Notes under the pieces: generated by a model
Databases searched by the model: none
The model's input: only the letters and a program-made list of their open reading frames with translations
Told to the model about the DNA's origin: nothing
Shown here: positions 13,310 to 19,852 of the stretch, one piece after another
How the letters are laid out: every line of letters begins with the position of its first letter
Numbering within the stretch: the first letter of the stretch is position 1
Source: Alkaliflexus imshenetskii DSM 15055
GTDB taxonomy: Bacteria > Bacteroidota > Bacteroidia > Bacteroidales > Marinilabiliaceae
Assembly: GCF_000517065.1 (NCBI RefSeq)
Contig: NZ_KI912105.1
Location: forward strand, 2,490,820 to 2,554,819
Direction: 5' to 3'
Length of the DNA: 64,000 nt
Program-made: the position numbers and the translations under genes

Positions 13310-14440
13310 TTACAATACACCTTTGGTGCTTGGCAGCTGGTTGCTGAAGGGGTCTTTGCGGATGGCTGCTTTGATGGCTTTGGCAAGTGCCTTGAAGATG
13401 CCTTCAATTTTGTGATGCTCGTTAGCGCCTTCGGCTTTGATGTTTAGGTTGCTGAGCGAGGTGTCGCTGAAGCTCTTAAAAAAGTGGTGAAACATCTCCG
13501 TAGGCATATCGCCAACTTTTTCGCGCTTAAACTCTGCATCCCAAACCAACCAAGGGCGGCCACCAAAATCGATGGCCACTTGTGCCAGCACATCGTCCAT
13601 TGGCAGGCAAAAACCATAGCGATCGATGCCACGCTTATCGCCCAGCGCCTTTTTAAAGGCTTCACCCAGCGCCAGACCTGTATCTTCAATGGTGTGGTGC
13701 TCATCTACATGTAAGTCACCGTTCACCTGTATGGTGAGGTCGCATCCTGAGTGGCGTCCAATCTGTTCCAGCATGTGGTCGAAAAAATGCAGTCCTGTGT
13801 TGATGTTGCATTTGCCGGTACCATCCAAATCAAGTTCTATGTGGATGGTAGTTTCGGATGTGCTGCGATCTACCACTGCCGTGCGGTCGGTGCGAAAGAG
13901 GAATGCGGTAATTTCATCCCAGTTGTTGGTAATCAGTTGACAGTGTTCCGATAATCCAGACGTTTCCAGCATCTGTTTTCCCTGCTCGGGTGATTGCACC
14001 AGAATGGCTTTGCTGCCGAGGTTTTTGGCCAGTTCCACATCGGTGAGCCTGTCGCCAATCACAAAGGAACCGGCAAGGTCATACGCATCGGTGAAATACT
14101 CCGTTAACATGCCGGTTCGCGGTTTTCTGGTGGGTGCGTTCTCTTCCGGAAATGAGCGGTCGATGTGAATTTTTTCAAAATGAATGCCTTCCCCTTCCAG
14201 TGTCTTCAGCATTTTGTTGTGTGCCGGCCAAAAGGTCTCTTCCGGAAACGATGGCGTTCCCAGACCATCCTGATTGGTTACCATCACCAGCTCAAAATCG
14301 AGGCGAGATGCTATCAGGTGCAGGTTGCGGATTGCTTTTGGGTAGAACTCCAGCTTTTCAAGACTGTCAATCTGAAAGTCGGTAGGGGGTTCTATAATAA
14401 TTGTGCCATCGCGGTCGATGAAAAGGACTTTTTTTTGCAT
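13310..14440 (-). CDS. hisB: Bifunctional histidinol-phosphatase / imidazoleglycerol-phosphate dehydratase
   Basis: A 376-residue fusion catalysing steps 6 and 8 of histidine synthesis. The N-terminal HAD phosphatase has the nucleophile motif with Asp9 and Asp11 (FIDRDGTI) and later [20 protein letters not shown]. The C-terminal dehydratase has the paired metal motifs [17 protein letters not shown] and [16 protein letters not shown], and near the end [17 protein letters not shown] and [17 protein letters not shown]. The enterobacterial HisB phosphatase binds zinc through Cys/His in its insert; the matching segment here ([16 protein letters not shown]) has no Cys. It starts 4 bp after the esterase stop and is the last gene of the his operon. 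Confidence 0.97.
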
Positions 14441-14444
14441 GGTG

Positions 14445-15347
14445 TTATTCTGATAAGATTCTTGATTTTAGCCAAATTTCCAGATAGTTTATCCAGTATG
14501 CAACGGGAGAAGCCGGTCGGAATCCATATCCGTGTCCACCTTCGGGCAGGATGATTTTGGTTACATCGGCTCCTGCTTGGTGCATGTTACGTGCAAACAA
14601 CTCGCTGTTGTCAACCGGTACGCTTTTGTCATCAAAAGAGTGAATCAGTAATGTGTTAGGCATTTCCCCACCGACCTGTTTCTCCAGAGAAAATTGTTGG
14701 ATGAGGTTTGCGGATGGTGTCAGGCCCAAAAGTCGCTCCCGGCTTCCTGCGTGGGTATGTGACTCTTCCATGGTTATCACCGGATAGACGAGTATGGAGA
14801 AGTCAGGGCGTACATTAGAGGGCTTCAGGTGGGTGTTTACCGGAGAACCAAACAGCGTAGCAACAGAGGCTGCCAGATGCCCGCCTGCCGAAAAGCCCAT
14901 GATGCCTACTCTGGCCGGATCTATGTTGAATTCTGCCGCATGGCTCCTCACATAATGAATGGCTTGCTGACCATCCATCATTGGCACAAACGACCGGTTG
15001 TCAACAATCTCCGGGTCGGGTAGCCGGTATTTAAGCACAAATGCTTCAAAGCCTAATCTGGTGAACCATTCTGCTACCATTGTTCCTTCGTGACTAAAAG
15101 CCTGACGGGAATAACCACCGCCCGGTACAATGATGATTGCCGGCCTGGGTTTGCTGCTTTCCACAGCGCTAAAATGGTAAAGTTCAGGAATTGAAACGTT
15201 AGAAACGTTGTTGCCGTCCCACATCTCATTTTTGTTGTTCTCCGGTCTGTTGTAGGGCGGCACATCATCCCATAACGGAATTCTTGTCTGGGCGCTTGTT
15301 GTCATCGCTATAAATACTATGATGCATGTGGTGAATAGTTGTTTCAT
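14445..15347 (-). CDS. Exported alpha/beta-hydrolase (BD-FAE-like esterase) inside the his operon
   Basis: A 300-residue serine hydrolase. The frame is open further upstream, but Met at 15347 ([20 protein letters not shown]) gives a clean signal peptide and is preferred. Motifs: oxyanion loop [14 protein letters not shown], nucleophile elbow GFSAGGH, acid [10 protein letters not shown], and catalytic His in PEGGHGYGF. This pattern fits the acetyl-xylan/BD-FAE esterase group that removes acyl groups from plant polysaccharides. The substrate is not determined. It lies between hisC (79-bp gap) and hisB (4-bp gap), an unusual place for an exported esterase. It probably rides on the his transcript. 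Confidence 0.85.
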
Positions 15348-15426
15348 GCAAAATGGATTGGTTCTTTTAGATGTCTCAACATTTCCGGCTTGCAAACTGA
15401 AATTGCATTTTTTAATTAAAGTTTAA

Positions 15427-16464
15427 TCAACTACTGTAGGCTTTTAGCGCTTTAAGCAACGTGTTGTTCTCATCAGGAGTGCCCACAGTGATGCGCAGAC
15501 AACCTGCACATAGCGTAACCGACGAGCGATCGCGTATGATGATTTTCTTGTCTGTGAGGTAGTTGTAAATCTTTTTTGGCTCAGCTGTTTTAATGAGCAA
15601 AAAGTTGGCATCCGACGGATAGATGTGCTCAACCAATTCGAGTTTAACAAGTTCATTGGCCAATGTTTGGCGCTCCTTAAGCAACAGCGTAACCCACTCA
15701 TCGGTTTGGTTTTTGTGTTCTAAAAGTTCCAACGCTTTTTTCTGAGTAAGGATGTTCAGGTTGTACGGGTACTTAATCTTGCTCAACACTTTGATTATTT
15801 CCGGGCTGGCAAAAGCCATTCCTAACCGAATACCTGCCATTCCCCATGCTTTTGAGAAGGTCTGTAATATCACCAGATTTTGATACTGGTTCAGTTTCGA
15901 AAGAAAACTCTTTTCCGGAGCAAAATCAATGTAAGCCTCGTCAATTACTACTATGCCATCAAATTTGTTAAGCAGGGATGTAATGTCTTCTTCTTTGAAG
16001 CAATTGCCGGTTGGGTTGTTGGGCGAACAGAGCCATATTAATTTGGTGTGCTGATCAACTGCTTGTAGAAGCTCCGTTACATTTAGTTGGAAATCAGCAG
16101 TAAGCGCAACTTTTTTTACTGATATGTGGTTGATGTCGGCGGCAACCTGGTACATACCGTAGGTTGGGTCAATGGATACCACGTTGTCTATCCCTGGCTC
16201 GCAAAAGGCTCGATAAAGCAGATCGATGGGTTCATCAGACCCGTTTCCCAGAAAAATAGTGGACGGATCTACCTGTTTCAGTTTGCCAATTACAGCTTTT
16301 AGCTTACGCTGATACGGGTCGGGGTAGCGGTTGTAGGGTTCATTAAATGGATTTTCGTTGGCATCCAAAAAAATTCCTTCGCTTCCGGTATATTCATCAC
16401 GTGCCGATGAATAGGGTTTTAAATTTTGTATGTTGGCGCGCAATAATTGGTTGAGCGGCTTCAT
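15427..16464 (-). CDS. hisC: Histidinol-phosphate aminotransferase
   Basis: A 345-residue PLP enzyme (fold type I, class II aminotransferase) converting imidazole-acetol phosphate and glutamate to histidinol phosphate. Visible motifs: DANENPF near residue 34 (substrate arm), [14 protein letters not shown] (PLP phosphate region), CSPNNPTGN (Asn), DEAYIDF (Asp and Tyr), and the lysine motif [16 protein letters not shown]. Length and order are standard. It lies between hisD (53-bp gap) and the esterase. Confidence 0.96.
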
Positions 16465-16517: not shown

Positions 16518-17801
16518 TTATTTTAGGCTTTCAAGTCTGATGGTCACGGCATTTTTGTGAGCTTGCAGCAGTTCTGCTTCGGCCATTTTTTCAATTACAG
16601 GACCCAGTGATTTCAGCCCCTCTTCCGTTATCTCCTGAAAGGTTATTTTGCGGATGTAACTGTCAAGATTTACCCCTGAAAAGGCTCGTGCATGACCGTA
16701 AGTTGGCAAAGTGTGATTGGTTCCCGAAGCATAATCACCGGCACTCTCAGGTGTGTAGTGCCCAATGAATACCGAGCCGGCATTTATCACTTTTTCTGCC
16801 ACCCCGGCAGCATTTTTTACCGATAGGATAAGGTGCTCGGGTGCGTAGAGGTTGCTCATCTGCATCATCTCGTCGAGGGATGTAAGCAGGATGGCACGGC
16901 TGTCGTTAAGTGCACCACTTGCTCCGGCCTCACGGGGCAGAACCTTGAGTTGATTTTCCACCTCCACAAGGGTTTGGTCGAGCAGTTGTGGACTGGTGGT
17001 GAGCAGTATTACCTGACTGCCGGCGCCGTGTTCGGCTTGCGATAGCAGGTCGGCTGCTACAAAGGCTGGATTGGCTGTTTCATCTGCCATCACTAGCACT
17101 TCTGATGGGCCTGCCGGCATATCGATGGCAGTGTCTTTAAGGCTCACCAATTGTTTGGCTGCTGTCACGTAGCGATTGCCCGGGCCAAAAATTTTATAAA
17201 CCTTTGGAACCGAATCGGTACCATACGCCATGGCGCCAATGGCTTGGATGCCACCAATTCTGAACACCTGCCTGATACCTGCCAAAGAGGCGGCATACAA
17301 GATGGCCGGATTTATCCTGCCGTCTTTATCGGGAGGTGTGCATAGCACTATCTCTTTACAACCTGCAATTTTAGCCGGTAGCCCAAGCATCAAAACCGTT
17401 GAGAAAAGGGGTGCAGTTCCTCCGGGCACGTATAATCCTACTTTTTCGATGGCTACACTTTTTTGCCAGCAGGTAACGCCCGGTTGCGTTTCTACCTTGG
17501 TTTGAAGCTGCCACTGGCTGGCATGAAATTTCTCCACATTGCCCGCCGCCACCTGAATTGCAGATTTTAGCTCATCGGAAAGAAGCGTCTCAGCCCTTTC
17601 AATTTCCTGTGGCGTAACCAGCAGGTCGCCACCGGCATAACCGTCAAATTTCTCGGTGTATCGCCGCACGGCCATGTCTCCATCCTTACGTATCTCTTCA
17701 AGGATGGAACCTACACTCTCATAAAGCCCTGATACATCACTCTCCGGACGTTGAAGTATCGTGGCCCACTCGGATAGTGGCGGGTTTACAAATCGTTGCA
17801 T
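16518..17801 (-). CDS. hisD: Histidinol dehydrogenase
   Basis: A 427-residue zinc and NAD-dependent enzyme that oxidises L-histidinol to L-histidine in two steps. Family motifs include VPGGTAPLFSTVLMLGLPAKIAGC, the long FGPGNRYVTAAKQLVSL followed by IDMPAGPSEVLVMAD, QAEHGAGSQVIL (zinc and substrate residues Gln/His), APEHLIL, and SAGDYASGTNHTLPTYGHARAFSGV near the C-terminus. All match the standard protein. It follows hisG by 12 bp. Confidence 0.97.
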   Translation of the reverse strand: MQRFVNPPLSEWATILQRPESDVSGLYESVGSILEEIRKDGDMAVRRYTEKFDGYAGGDLLVTPQEIERAETLLSDELKSAIQVAAGNVEKFHASQWQLQTKVETQPGVTCWQKSVAIEKVGLYVPGGTAPLFSTVLMLGLPAKIAGCKEIVLCTPPDKDGRINPAILYAASLAGIRQVFRIGGIQAIGAMAYGTDSVPKVYKIFGPGNRYVTAAKQLVSLKDTAIDMPAGPSEVLVMADETANPAFVAADLLSQAEHGAGSQVILLTTSPQLLDQTLVEVENQLKVLPREAGASGALNDSRAILLTSLDEMMQMSNLYAPEHLILSVKNAAGVAEKVINAGSVFIGHYTPESAGDYASGTNHTLPTYGHARAFSGVNLDSYIRKITFQEITEEGLKSLGPVIEKMAEAELLQAHKNAVTIRLESLK

Positions 17802-17813
17802 CTCAGTTTGGTT

Positions 17814-18674
17814 TTAGAGAATCATTTTTTCGATGGGGATAATCAGAATGCCTTCGGCACCATTGGCTTTGAGCTGGTCAATAACCTCCCAAAATTTGTT
17901 TTCCTGAATAACGGAGTGGATTGAACTCCATCCCTCTTCGGCCAGTGGTAGTACAGTGGGGCTTTTCATACCCGGTAAAATGTTTACAATTTGACTTACC
18001 TTGTCATTGGGGGCATTAAGCAGAATGTACTTATTGGAGTTGGATGCCTGAACTGCATTAAAGCGGAAGATAAGTTGATCAAGTAACGCCTTCTTCTCGG
18101 CGGATAGCTTCTTATTTGCCACCAGCAATGCCTCGGATTGCATCACCACTTCAACCTCTTTCAGGCTGTTGGCTACGAGCGTACTGCCTGAGCTAACGAT
18201 GTCAAAAATGGCATCTGCCAAACCAATACCAGGAGCAATTTCCACTGAGCCGGCAATCTCATGGATGTCGGCCGAAATGCCTTTCTCCTTGAAGAATTTT
18301 TTAAGAATCTCAGGATACGAAGTGGCAATTTTCTTGTTGTTGAACCACGTTAAGTCGGTGTAATTTTCGCTTTTGGGGATGGCCAGAGACAATCGGCATT
18401 TGCTAAAACCAAGACGCTTCACAATTTCCAGTTCAAAACCCTTCTCAGCATATTCGTTCTCGCCAACTACACCCAGGTCTGCCACGCCATCGGCTACCGT
18501 TTGTGGTATGTCATCATCGCGCAAAAAGAGCGCTTCAACCGGATAACCTGTGGCTGATGCAATCAAGCGGCCGCTGCCAAGGTTGAACTTTATACCTGAC
18601 TCCTTCATCAGAGCCATACTGTCGTCGTGTAATCTTCCTTTTTTCTGTAAAGCAATTCGTAATGTTGTTTCCAT
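17814..18674 (-). CDS. hisG: ATP phosphoribosyltransferase, long form
   Basis: A 286-residue enzyme for the first committed step of histidine synthesis, ATP plus PRPP to phosphoribosyl-ATP. The start LRIALQKKGRLHDDSMALMKESG and the PRPP loop DIVSSGSTLVANSLKEVE are typical. The extra ~75 residues at the C-terminus (from about residue 210, with VLPLAEEGWSSIHSVIQE) are the regulatory domain of the long form, which binds histidine as feedback inhibitor and does not need HisZ. First structural gene of the operon, 42 bp downstream of the attenuator terminator, so control is both allosteric and transcriptional. Confidence 0.97.
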   Translation of the reverse strand: METTLRIALQKKGRLHDDSMALMKESGIKFNLGSGRLIASATGYPVEALFLRDDDIPQTVADGVADLGVVGENEYAEKGFELEIVKRLGFSKCRLSLAIPKSENYTDLTWFNNKKIATSYPEILKKFFKEKGISADIHEIAGSVEIAPGIGLADAIFDIVSSGSTLVANSLKEVEVVMQSEALLVANKKLSAEKKALLDQLIFRFNAVQASNSNKYILLNAPNDKVSQIVNILPGMKSPTVLPLAEEGWSSIHSVIQENKFWEVIDQLKANGAEGILIIPIEKMIL

Positions 18675-18713
18675 GTGTCAGTTATTGGTATATTTTATAA
18701 ACAATTACAAAAC

Positions 18714-18743
18714 AAAAAAGGCTCACCACAGCGGGCAAGCCTT
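18714..18743 (-). terminator. Attenuator terminator of the his operon
   Basis: On the minus strand, 18743-18734 and 18727-18718 form a 10-bp stem (two G-U pairs) with a 6-nt loop, followed at once by a run of six T. This is an intrinsic terminator between the leader peptide and hisG. An alternative pairing exists: 18772-18767 (GTGGGC) can pair with 18736-18731 (GCCCGC). That uses part of the terminator's 5' arm, so the two structures exclude each other. Confidence 0.85.
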
Positions 18744-18775
18744 ACGTTATATTATGCACACAACAAGCCCACCCC

Positions 18776-18823
18776 TTAAGTAAGGAGATGATGATGAGCG
18801 TTGATGTGATGTGTAAAAATCAT
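18776..18823 (-). CDS. hisL: his operon leader peptide, 5 His in 15 residues
   Basis: The minus-strand frame from ATG at 18823 to TAA at 18778-18776 encodes MIFTHHINAHHHLLT, with His at positions 5, 6, 10, 11 and 12. It lies just upstream of an intrinsic terminator and of hisG, and about 23 bases downstream of a Bacteroidota-type -7 element. By analogy with enterobacterial hisL, scarce charged tRNA-His would stall the ribosome on the His codons and let the antiterminator form. The peptide is not expected to have a function of its own. Confidence 0.88.
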   Translation of the reverse strand: MIFTHHINAHHHLLT

Positions 18824-18845
18824 AGGTTCAAATCTTGAATCATTG

Positions 18846-18876
18846 CAAAACTATGATTTTTGCTTTGTAATTCCAA
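18846..18876 (-). promoter_or_regulatory. Predicted his operon promoter
   Basis: On the minus strand 18853-18846 reads TAGTTTTG, an exact match to the Bacteroidota -7 consensus TAnnTTTG. A weaker -33-like TTGG lies at 18876-18873. Transcription would start near 18840, giving a leader of about 17 bases before the hisL ATG, as expected for an attenuator transcript. Confidence 0.6.
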
Positions 18877-19090
18877 TTTTTTCTGTCGCAAATCTGACAG
18901 TTTTTTATGAGAATGTGTTTTGATAGTCTGATTTTCGCATCACCTATTTTTCTGAATGGTGTTTTGTGTGCCAAGAAATGATGCGATTTTGTCAAAGTGA
19001 TATGAAATTTTATCAAAATGCAATTAGTCAGCTTTTTACTGATGTATCGAATTGGAATTAATCGTATTTTAACTTGTTGAAATATCAGTT

Positions 19091-19852
19091 ATGAAGCAGT
19101 TATTTTTAATTCTAATTTCTTTCATTGTGGGCTCGTGTATAACCAAACCTGGCGCAAATGATTCGTTGAGGTTACTCGTTTTTACCAAAACAAACGACTA
19201 CCGTCACGAGGTAATTCCCTTAAGCATCGATGCCATGCGGGATATATGTAAAAACAACGGTTGGCTGATGACCCCTACTGAGGATTCTCTCATGTTTAGC
19301 GCTAATGCTCTTGAAGCTGTTGATGTAGTGGTGTTTATGCACACTTCCGGCGATGTGTTGGGGGAAGCTGAACGCGAGGCTCTGAAAAATTTCGTAGAGA
19401 GGGGTGGCGGATTGGTAACGATTCATTCGGGAACGGCAACACAAAACAGCTGGAGCTGGTATGTGAATGCTGTGGGAGCCATCTTCACAGGCCATCCGCC
19501 GGTGCAACCCGGCAAATTATTCATTGAAGACAGAACGCATCCCGCTACCTCATTTCTACCTGATTCTGTATGGATTCTGGAAGATGAATGGTATAGTTTC
19601 GACCGCAATCCGCGAAACAATGTGCATGTGCTCATCTCCATTGATGAAACATCTTACGATGTGGATGACAATCGCTGGTTTCCGGATGCCCAACAACGTA
19701 TGGGTGACCATCCTTTGGTCTGGTGTCAGGAAGTTAAACAGGGCAGGGTGTTTCAAACTGCTTTGGGTCATGAGCCGGCTCTATATGCCAATCCGTTGTT
19801 TTTGAAACATCTTGAAGGTGGTGTTAAATGGGCTGCCAATCTGGTAGATTAA
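19091..19852 (+). CDS. ThuA-like lipoprotein
   Basis: A 253-residue predicted lipoprotein: signal LFLILISFIVGSC with the lipobox Cys at residue 16. The rest is a ThuA-like (class-I-glutamine-amidotransferase-like fold) domain: LRLLVFTKTNDYRHEVIPLSIDAM at the start, VVVFMHTSGDVL, GGGLVTIHSGTAT, and GRVFQTALGHEPALYANPLFLKHLEGGVKWA at the end, all typical. ThuA-type proteins occur with sugar or glycoside-degradation genes, but their reaction is mostly unknown. It is directly followed by a beta-mannosidase, fitting a small carbohydrate-use unit. Confidence 0.85.
   Translation: MKQLFLILISFIVGSCITKPGANDSLRLLVFTKTNDYRHEVIPLSIDAMRDICKNNGWLMTPTEDSLMFSANALEAVDVVVFMHTSGDVLGEAEREALKNFVERGGGLVTIHSGTATQNSWSWYVNAVGAIFTGHPPVQPGKLFIEDRTHPATSFLPDSVWILEDEWYSFDRNPRNNVHVLISIDETSYDVDDNRWFPDAQQRMGDHPLVWCQEVKQGRVFQTALGHEPALYANPLFLKHLEGGVKWAANLVD

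Follow-up and report, generated by a model that had tools for sequence, protein, structure and literature searches.

A candidate His-leader-peptide attenuator upstream of hisG in Alkaliflexus imshenetskii and its occurrence among the Bacteroidota

The his genes and the leader region upstream of hisG

The window analysed here, a stretch of 64,000 nucleotides from Alkaliflexus imshenetskii DSM 15055, carries on its minus strand hisG (18674-17814), encoding the long form of ATP phosphoribosyltransferase (HisG, PF01634; HisG_C, PF08029), followed by hisD for histidinol dehydrogenase (16518-17801; PF00815), hisC, an aminotransferase gene named from its context (15427-16464; PF00155), and hisB, which encodes a bifunctional protein comprised of a HAD phosphatase-like part and an IGP dehydratase (13310-14440; PF00475, PF13242). 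The genes downstream of the leader described below are those of histidine synthesis. The bifunctional hisB represents the enterobacterial hisNB type of fusion, and a gene for a BD-FAE / alpha-beta hydrolase (14445-15395, minus strand; PF20434) separates hisC from hisB within the putative his operon. The genes hisH, hisA, and hisF lie elsewhere in the genome, at about 2.653 Mb (L278:787-3237), roughly 100 kb away from the window, and are preceded by a formyltransferase-like gene at a distance of about 40 nt. A second His leader was sought at hisH-hisA-hisF and none was found there, so that the pathway would be only partly under the control of the attenuator proposed below.

In minus-strand order, the leader region is flanked by a divergent ORF on the plus strand (19091-19852) on one side and by hisG on the other. 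Read from the sequence, it contains a putative Bacteroidota -7 promoter element, TAGTTTTG (TAnnTTTG; 18853-18846), and, 19 nt upstream of it, a weak -33 element, TTGG (18873-18876; consensus TTTG). Beyond TAGTTTTG, at a distance of 22 nt, lies the ATG of a short ORF (18823-18776, minus strand) for the peptide MIFTHHINAHHHLLT, with the codons ATG ATT TTT ACA CAT CAC ATC AAC GCT CAT CAT CAT CTC CTT ACT TAA. Five of its 15 codons specify His (four CAT and one CAC), i.e., a short ORF rich in codons for the end product of the pathway precedes hisG. Its stop codon TAA (18778-18776) is directly followed by the G-rich stretch GGGGUGGGCUUGUUGUGUG. ORFs of at most 20 codons with at least five His were obtained in only 1 of 20000 dinucleotide shuffles of the leader, which agrees with the statement in the initial annotation that this layout is not produced by chance. 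Another frame of seven codons, MIQDLNL (18842-18819, minus strand), starts at an upstream ATG at 18842 and has an ATGA overlap with the leader start. This frame was set aside because its first codon is probably situated at or upstream of the point where transcription begins, so that it may remain untranslated.

Three alternative hairpins are predicted for the leader RNA, all on the minus strand. In the 1:2 hairpin (18757-18811; -17.1 kcal/mol), the region of the His codons (18811-18795 and 18787-18782) pairs with region 2 (18777-18757), and region 2 would be sequestered in this way if the His codons carried no ribosome. The antiterminator or 2:3 hairpin (18733-18774; -19.4 kcal/mol) comprises 17 bp, 9 bp formed by 18774-18766 with 18741-18733 and an inner helix of 8 bp formed by 18765-18758 with 18752-18745; its region 2 sequence, GGGUGGGCUUGUUGUGU (also given as GGGUGGGC), begins 2 nt downstream of the leader stop, which places the stop codon next to region 2. 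The intrinsic terminator or 3:4 hairpin (AAGGCTTGCCCGCTGTGGTGAGCCTT + TTTTGTTTTG; 18743-18718; -14.0 kcal/mol), with a U-tract at 18717-18708, is located between the leader ORF and the first gene, 43 nt before hisG. Region 3 is common to both of these structures, and antiterminator (18774-18733) and terminator are therefore mutually exclusive. Judging from the three fold energies, the antiterminator would be the more stable structure when region 1 is masked, and the terminator would form when region 2 is masked. Taken as a whole, the leader folds with a stability only slightly above that of shuffles (z -1.33), and a terminator-like hairpin alone means little, because such sites are no commoner in the window than in shuffles (10 versus 10.8).

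The -7 element, the 15-codon ORF with its five His, the terminator, and hisG occupy the minus-strand positions that the initial annotation had assigned to them. It had also proposed an antiterminator sharing bases with the terminator, and in this respect it was right, although the register of 6 bp given for it (18772-18767 with 18736-18731) has to be replaced by the pairing of 18774-18758 with 18752-18745 and 18741-18733. The 6-bp register has a fold energy of -8.3 kcal/mol and is paired to 59.9% in 67 aligned units, which is no better than in shuffles.

Conservation and covariation of the leader in relatives

Comparison with 67 hisG upstream regions from the window's own GTDB family, i.e., Marinilabiliaceae relatives, clarifies that a His-rich leader ORF together with a terminator is present in 62 of them. 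The initial annotation had suggested looking in close relatives for exactly these two features and for covarying stems and conserved His codons in aligned hisG upstream regions, and all of these were encountered (His frame and terminator in 62/67 genomes). Among named sources, the closest hisG genes (85% identity) come from an uncultured Marinilabiliaceae MAG, Natronoflexus, and Alkalitalea. Each leader of the family contains at least three His, which make up 33% of the leader residues and are encoded by 461 CAT and 77 CAC codons; the rest of the peptide sequence differs freely between relatives. The promoter element is kept as well: of 91 distinct leaders, 87 have TAnnTTTG at a distance of 18-34 nt upstream of their ATG, compared with 5.6 expected by composition, and TTG is found at the -33 place in 80 of the 87 relatives having the -7 element.

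An antiterminator fold is predicted in 105 of 108 units. Since the length of the ORF varies, region 2 fell out of register when whole leaders were aligned with MAFFT, and an alignment starting from region 2 (A1) was used instead, for which at least six predicted 2:3 pairs were required (the 105 of 108 units qualified) and which consists of 67 units. In the register 18774-18766/18741-18733, 92.2% of the cells of the 2:3 helix are paired in the 67 aligned units, and 97.3% of the cells of the 3:4 helix in the 67 relatives, percentages that lean towards structure because the units of A1 were chosen by predicted 2:3 pairs and cut at region 2. Pairing of the 2:3 helix falls to 30-52% once the register is slid. 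Cells with a double change number 41 in the 2:3 helix compared to 17.7 in shuffles, controls that ignore the relatedness among units, and changes on both sides are seen in 7 of the 10 pairs of the 3:4 helix. Compensation is exemplified by region 2 GGURGGC with region 3 GCUURCC and by GGAUGAGC with GCUUAUCC. Judged from these alignments, antiterminator and terminator helices covary in the relatives, around a conserved core consisting of GGURGGC in region 2, GGCUURCC in region 3, and GGUAAGCC in region 4. As long as region 3 has yet to be transcribed, the best fold pairs the core of region 2 with the upstream region 1 in 102 of 104 units. Also, measured from the last base of the leader stop codon, the start of region 2 falls between -13 and +5 nt in nearly all units, a position at which a ribosome at the stop codon would cover it.

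A model of the conserved element (R1) finds its best match in the genome at hisG (64.2 bits) and the next at 29.9 bits, so that the element is single in this genome. Weak matches of R1 across the order were left out of the attenuator count, as generic terminators also reach such scores. Short ORFs with a His cluster on the hisG strand are frequent in the Bacteroidales, being present in 95 of 135 distinct upstream regions, whereas the reverse strand has them in 3 and shuffles in 0.8%; named genera with the element include Parabacteroides, Dysgonomonas, Bacteroides, Saccharicrinis, and Carboxylicivirga. In a sample of the phylum outside the family, 72 of 89 hisG genes possess a His-rich leader ORF, the corresponding count on the reverse strand being 0. 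The rarity among Bacteroidota implied by the initial annotation thus needs correcting, as the element is widespread in the phylum.

Proposed mechanism and alternative readings

Transcription of the hisGDC-(hydrolase)-hisB operon in A. imshenetskii is very probably attenuated at this leader by a ribosome-mediated mechanism. Sequence and covariation show the ORF, the three alternative hairpins with their conservation, and the promoter element, and from these we infer the mechanism, including activity of the promoter, translation of the ORF, stalling of the ribosome, and termination. RNA polymerase would start just downstream of TAGTTTTG and make a short leader, on which a ribosome would initiate at the 15-codon ORF. 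With ample His-tRNA, the ribosome would pass the five His codons up to TAA and cover region 2, and in a leader lacking a ribosome region 1 would pair with region 2. In either case region 3 would be free to pair with region 4, and transcription would end at the terminator near 18715-18708, yielding a leader transcript of about 130 nt. If His-tRNA is scarce, the ribosome would stall on the His codons, mask region 1, and set region 2 free, which would form the 17-bp antiterminator with region 3 and allow the polymerase to read into hisG. The his genes would then be switched on only when histidine is short.

Conceivably, the pair of terminator and antiterminator could be governed by a sensor other than the ribosome, such as a T-box binding tRNA, a histidine riboswitch, or an RNA-binding protein, the His run being incidental, since alternative hairpins alone say nothing about what senses histidine. 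Such control seems highly improbable, as neither a T-box nor a riboswitch was found by an Rfam search, His accounts for one third of the leader residues with both CAT and CAC in use, and the stop codon keeps its place beside region 2. Moreover, the His run is kept where the surrounding RNA is unrelated. While some families have the terminator GGCTTACC in common, others, which are Flavobacteria-like, possess the unrelated terminator CCCGTCTGAGT..ACGGG behind their His leaders.

A function in trans, in addition to the one in cis, might be attributed to the leader peptide or to the terminated RNA, following the reported precedent of peTrpL/rnTrpL in Sinorhizobium (PMC7298713), and a terminated RNA of the expected size could serve this purpose. 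We regard an additional role of this kind as very unlikely, given that nothing points to it and that the peptide is free to vary outside its His residues, and it would not exclude attenuation in any case. A reading of the hairpin as an ordinary terminator or insulator, next to a His-rich ORF that arose by chance, would fit the unremarkable number of terminator-like sites in the window, but this is refuted by the comparison with relatives in family and phylum as well as by the shuffles of the leader and has practically no probability left. Ribosome-mediated attenuation, as initially annotated, is by far the best explanation for an arrangement in which His codons, regions 2 and 3, terminator, and promoter are conserved, and the description of the locus as a complete his attenuator is borne out by the retention of ORF, three hairpins, and promoter element in the relatives.

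Relation to known attenuators and variants of the element

At the gathering threshold, Rfam gave no match to His_leader (RF00514) or T-box in the window, and neither was matched at E <= 10 in positions 18600-18960. The best leader family at the loose threshold was Thr_leader with 17.9 bits against 55, so that Rfam contained no matching family at strict or loose thresholds. In E. coli and Salmonella, hisL consists of a leader ORF with His codons and mutually exclusive antiterminator and terminator structures directly upstream of hisG. The element described here resembles hisL in its His-codon leader, its exclusive hairpins, and its position directly before hisG, and differs from it (RF00514) in having another core, a Bacteroidota promoter, five interrupted His codons, and a simple 1:2:3:4 arrangement. 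Candidate attenuators in some cases in Bacteroidetes/Chlorobi were reportedly described by Vitreschak et al. in 2004, in FEMS Microbiol Lett 234:357. According to a survey of 2010, no leader-peptide system had been demonstrated in phyla other than Proteobacteria and Actinobacteria, with the exception of the atypical ermC leader, before one in Firmicutes was reported (PMC2965389). His attenuators were described in 2022 for Firmicutes of the Bacillus cereus group, Eubacteriales, and Erysipelotrichales (PMC9413887); there, too, three to five His codons are followed by attenuator, antiterminator, and terminator hairpins before the his genes, a likeness in layout across different phyla.

Within the phylum, a transcript map of Flavobacterium psychrophilum (2021, ISME Commun) provides strong clues for leader-peptide attenuators before amino-acid operons, and its main text names no his and gives no RNA elements (PMC9723704). 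The sampled Flavobacteria-like families differ in their terminator, as mentioned above. A transcript map of B. thetaiotaomicron notes long 5' UTRs whose short ORFs recall leader peptides (PMC7366714), and a 2021 review on his genes of this superphylum mentions attenuation, in the passages considered here, for enterobacteria only (PMC8305728). The mechanism itself is not new, being that of enterobacterial hisL, and leader-peptide attenuation has already been inferred in the phylum for F. psychrophilum; what is well supported is a conserved form of its own with a broad distribution. Leader-peptide attenuation of histidine synthesis thereby becomes a testable general feature of the Bacteroidota, a phylum with unusual promoters and few Shine-Dalgarno sites, in which the tight coupling of transcription and translation needed by attenuation has been little studied. 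The alignment of units can serve as the basis for building a family for RNA libraries.

On balance, we favour the view that the element constitutes an undescribed, sequence-conserved RNA family (GGURGGC / GGCUURCC / GGUAAGCC), ancestral at least to the Bacteroidales, within a phylum-wide His-leader control of hisG, that one lineage has duplicated it in series to give a two-stage His switch, and that others retain a leader devoid of a terminator and suggestive of a different read-out, Rho-dependent or translational. Both variants, two attenuators in series and leaders without a terminator, are offered by nature for dissection. Two complete units of His leader and terminator in series precede hisG in fifteen genomes of the family, mostly from one Carboxylicivirga-like genus (L012, L013, L015, L017, L018, L026, L029, L113, L116, L117, L120, L121, L122, L125, and L128). 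The second ATG is located 16-31 nt after the first terminator, and TAnnTTTG is absent between the units. Tandem leader-ORF attenuators are known from Salmonella mgtCBR (PMC3641672), and no precedent for tandem attenuators responding to the same amino acid was found in the literature searched.

The hisG genes of ten Paludibacter-like genomes have no His leader (L067, L068, L069, L072, L082, L085, L104, L106, L109, and L111); they follow the terminator of another gene (GTCCGTTA..TAACGGAC) and show TAnnTTTG close to their ATG, a layout that looks like loss of attenuation. Elsewhere, no intrinsic terminator was detected behind the His leader in families f121, f129, and f142 and in part of f128 (L252-L256 in f121; L190 and L192-L195 in f128; L245 in f129; L269 and L274 in f142). 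Persistence of the leader without an intrinsic terminator suggests a different read-out, and control of these loci is possibly Rho-dependent or translational. In f121, f128, and f129, a short hairpin extends across the leader stop codon, for example CATTCCTCTTGAGAGGAAT. The hisG genes of f121 have an apparent TTG or GTG start.
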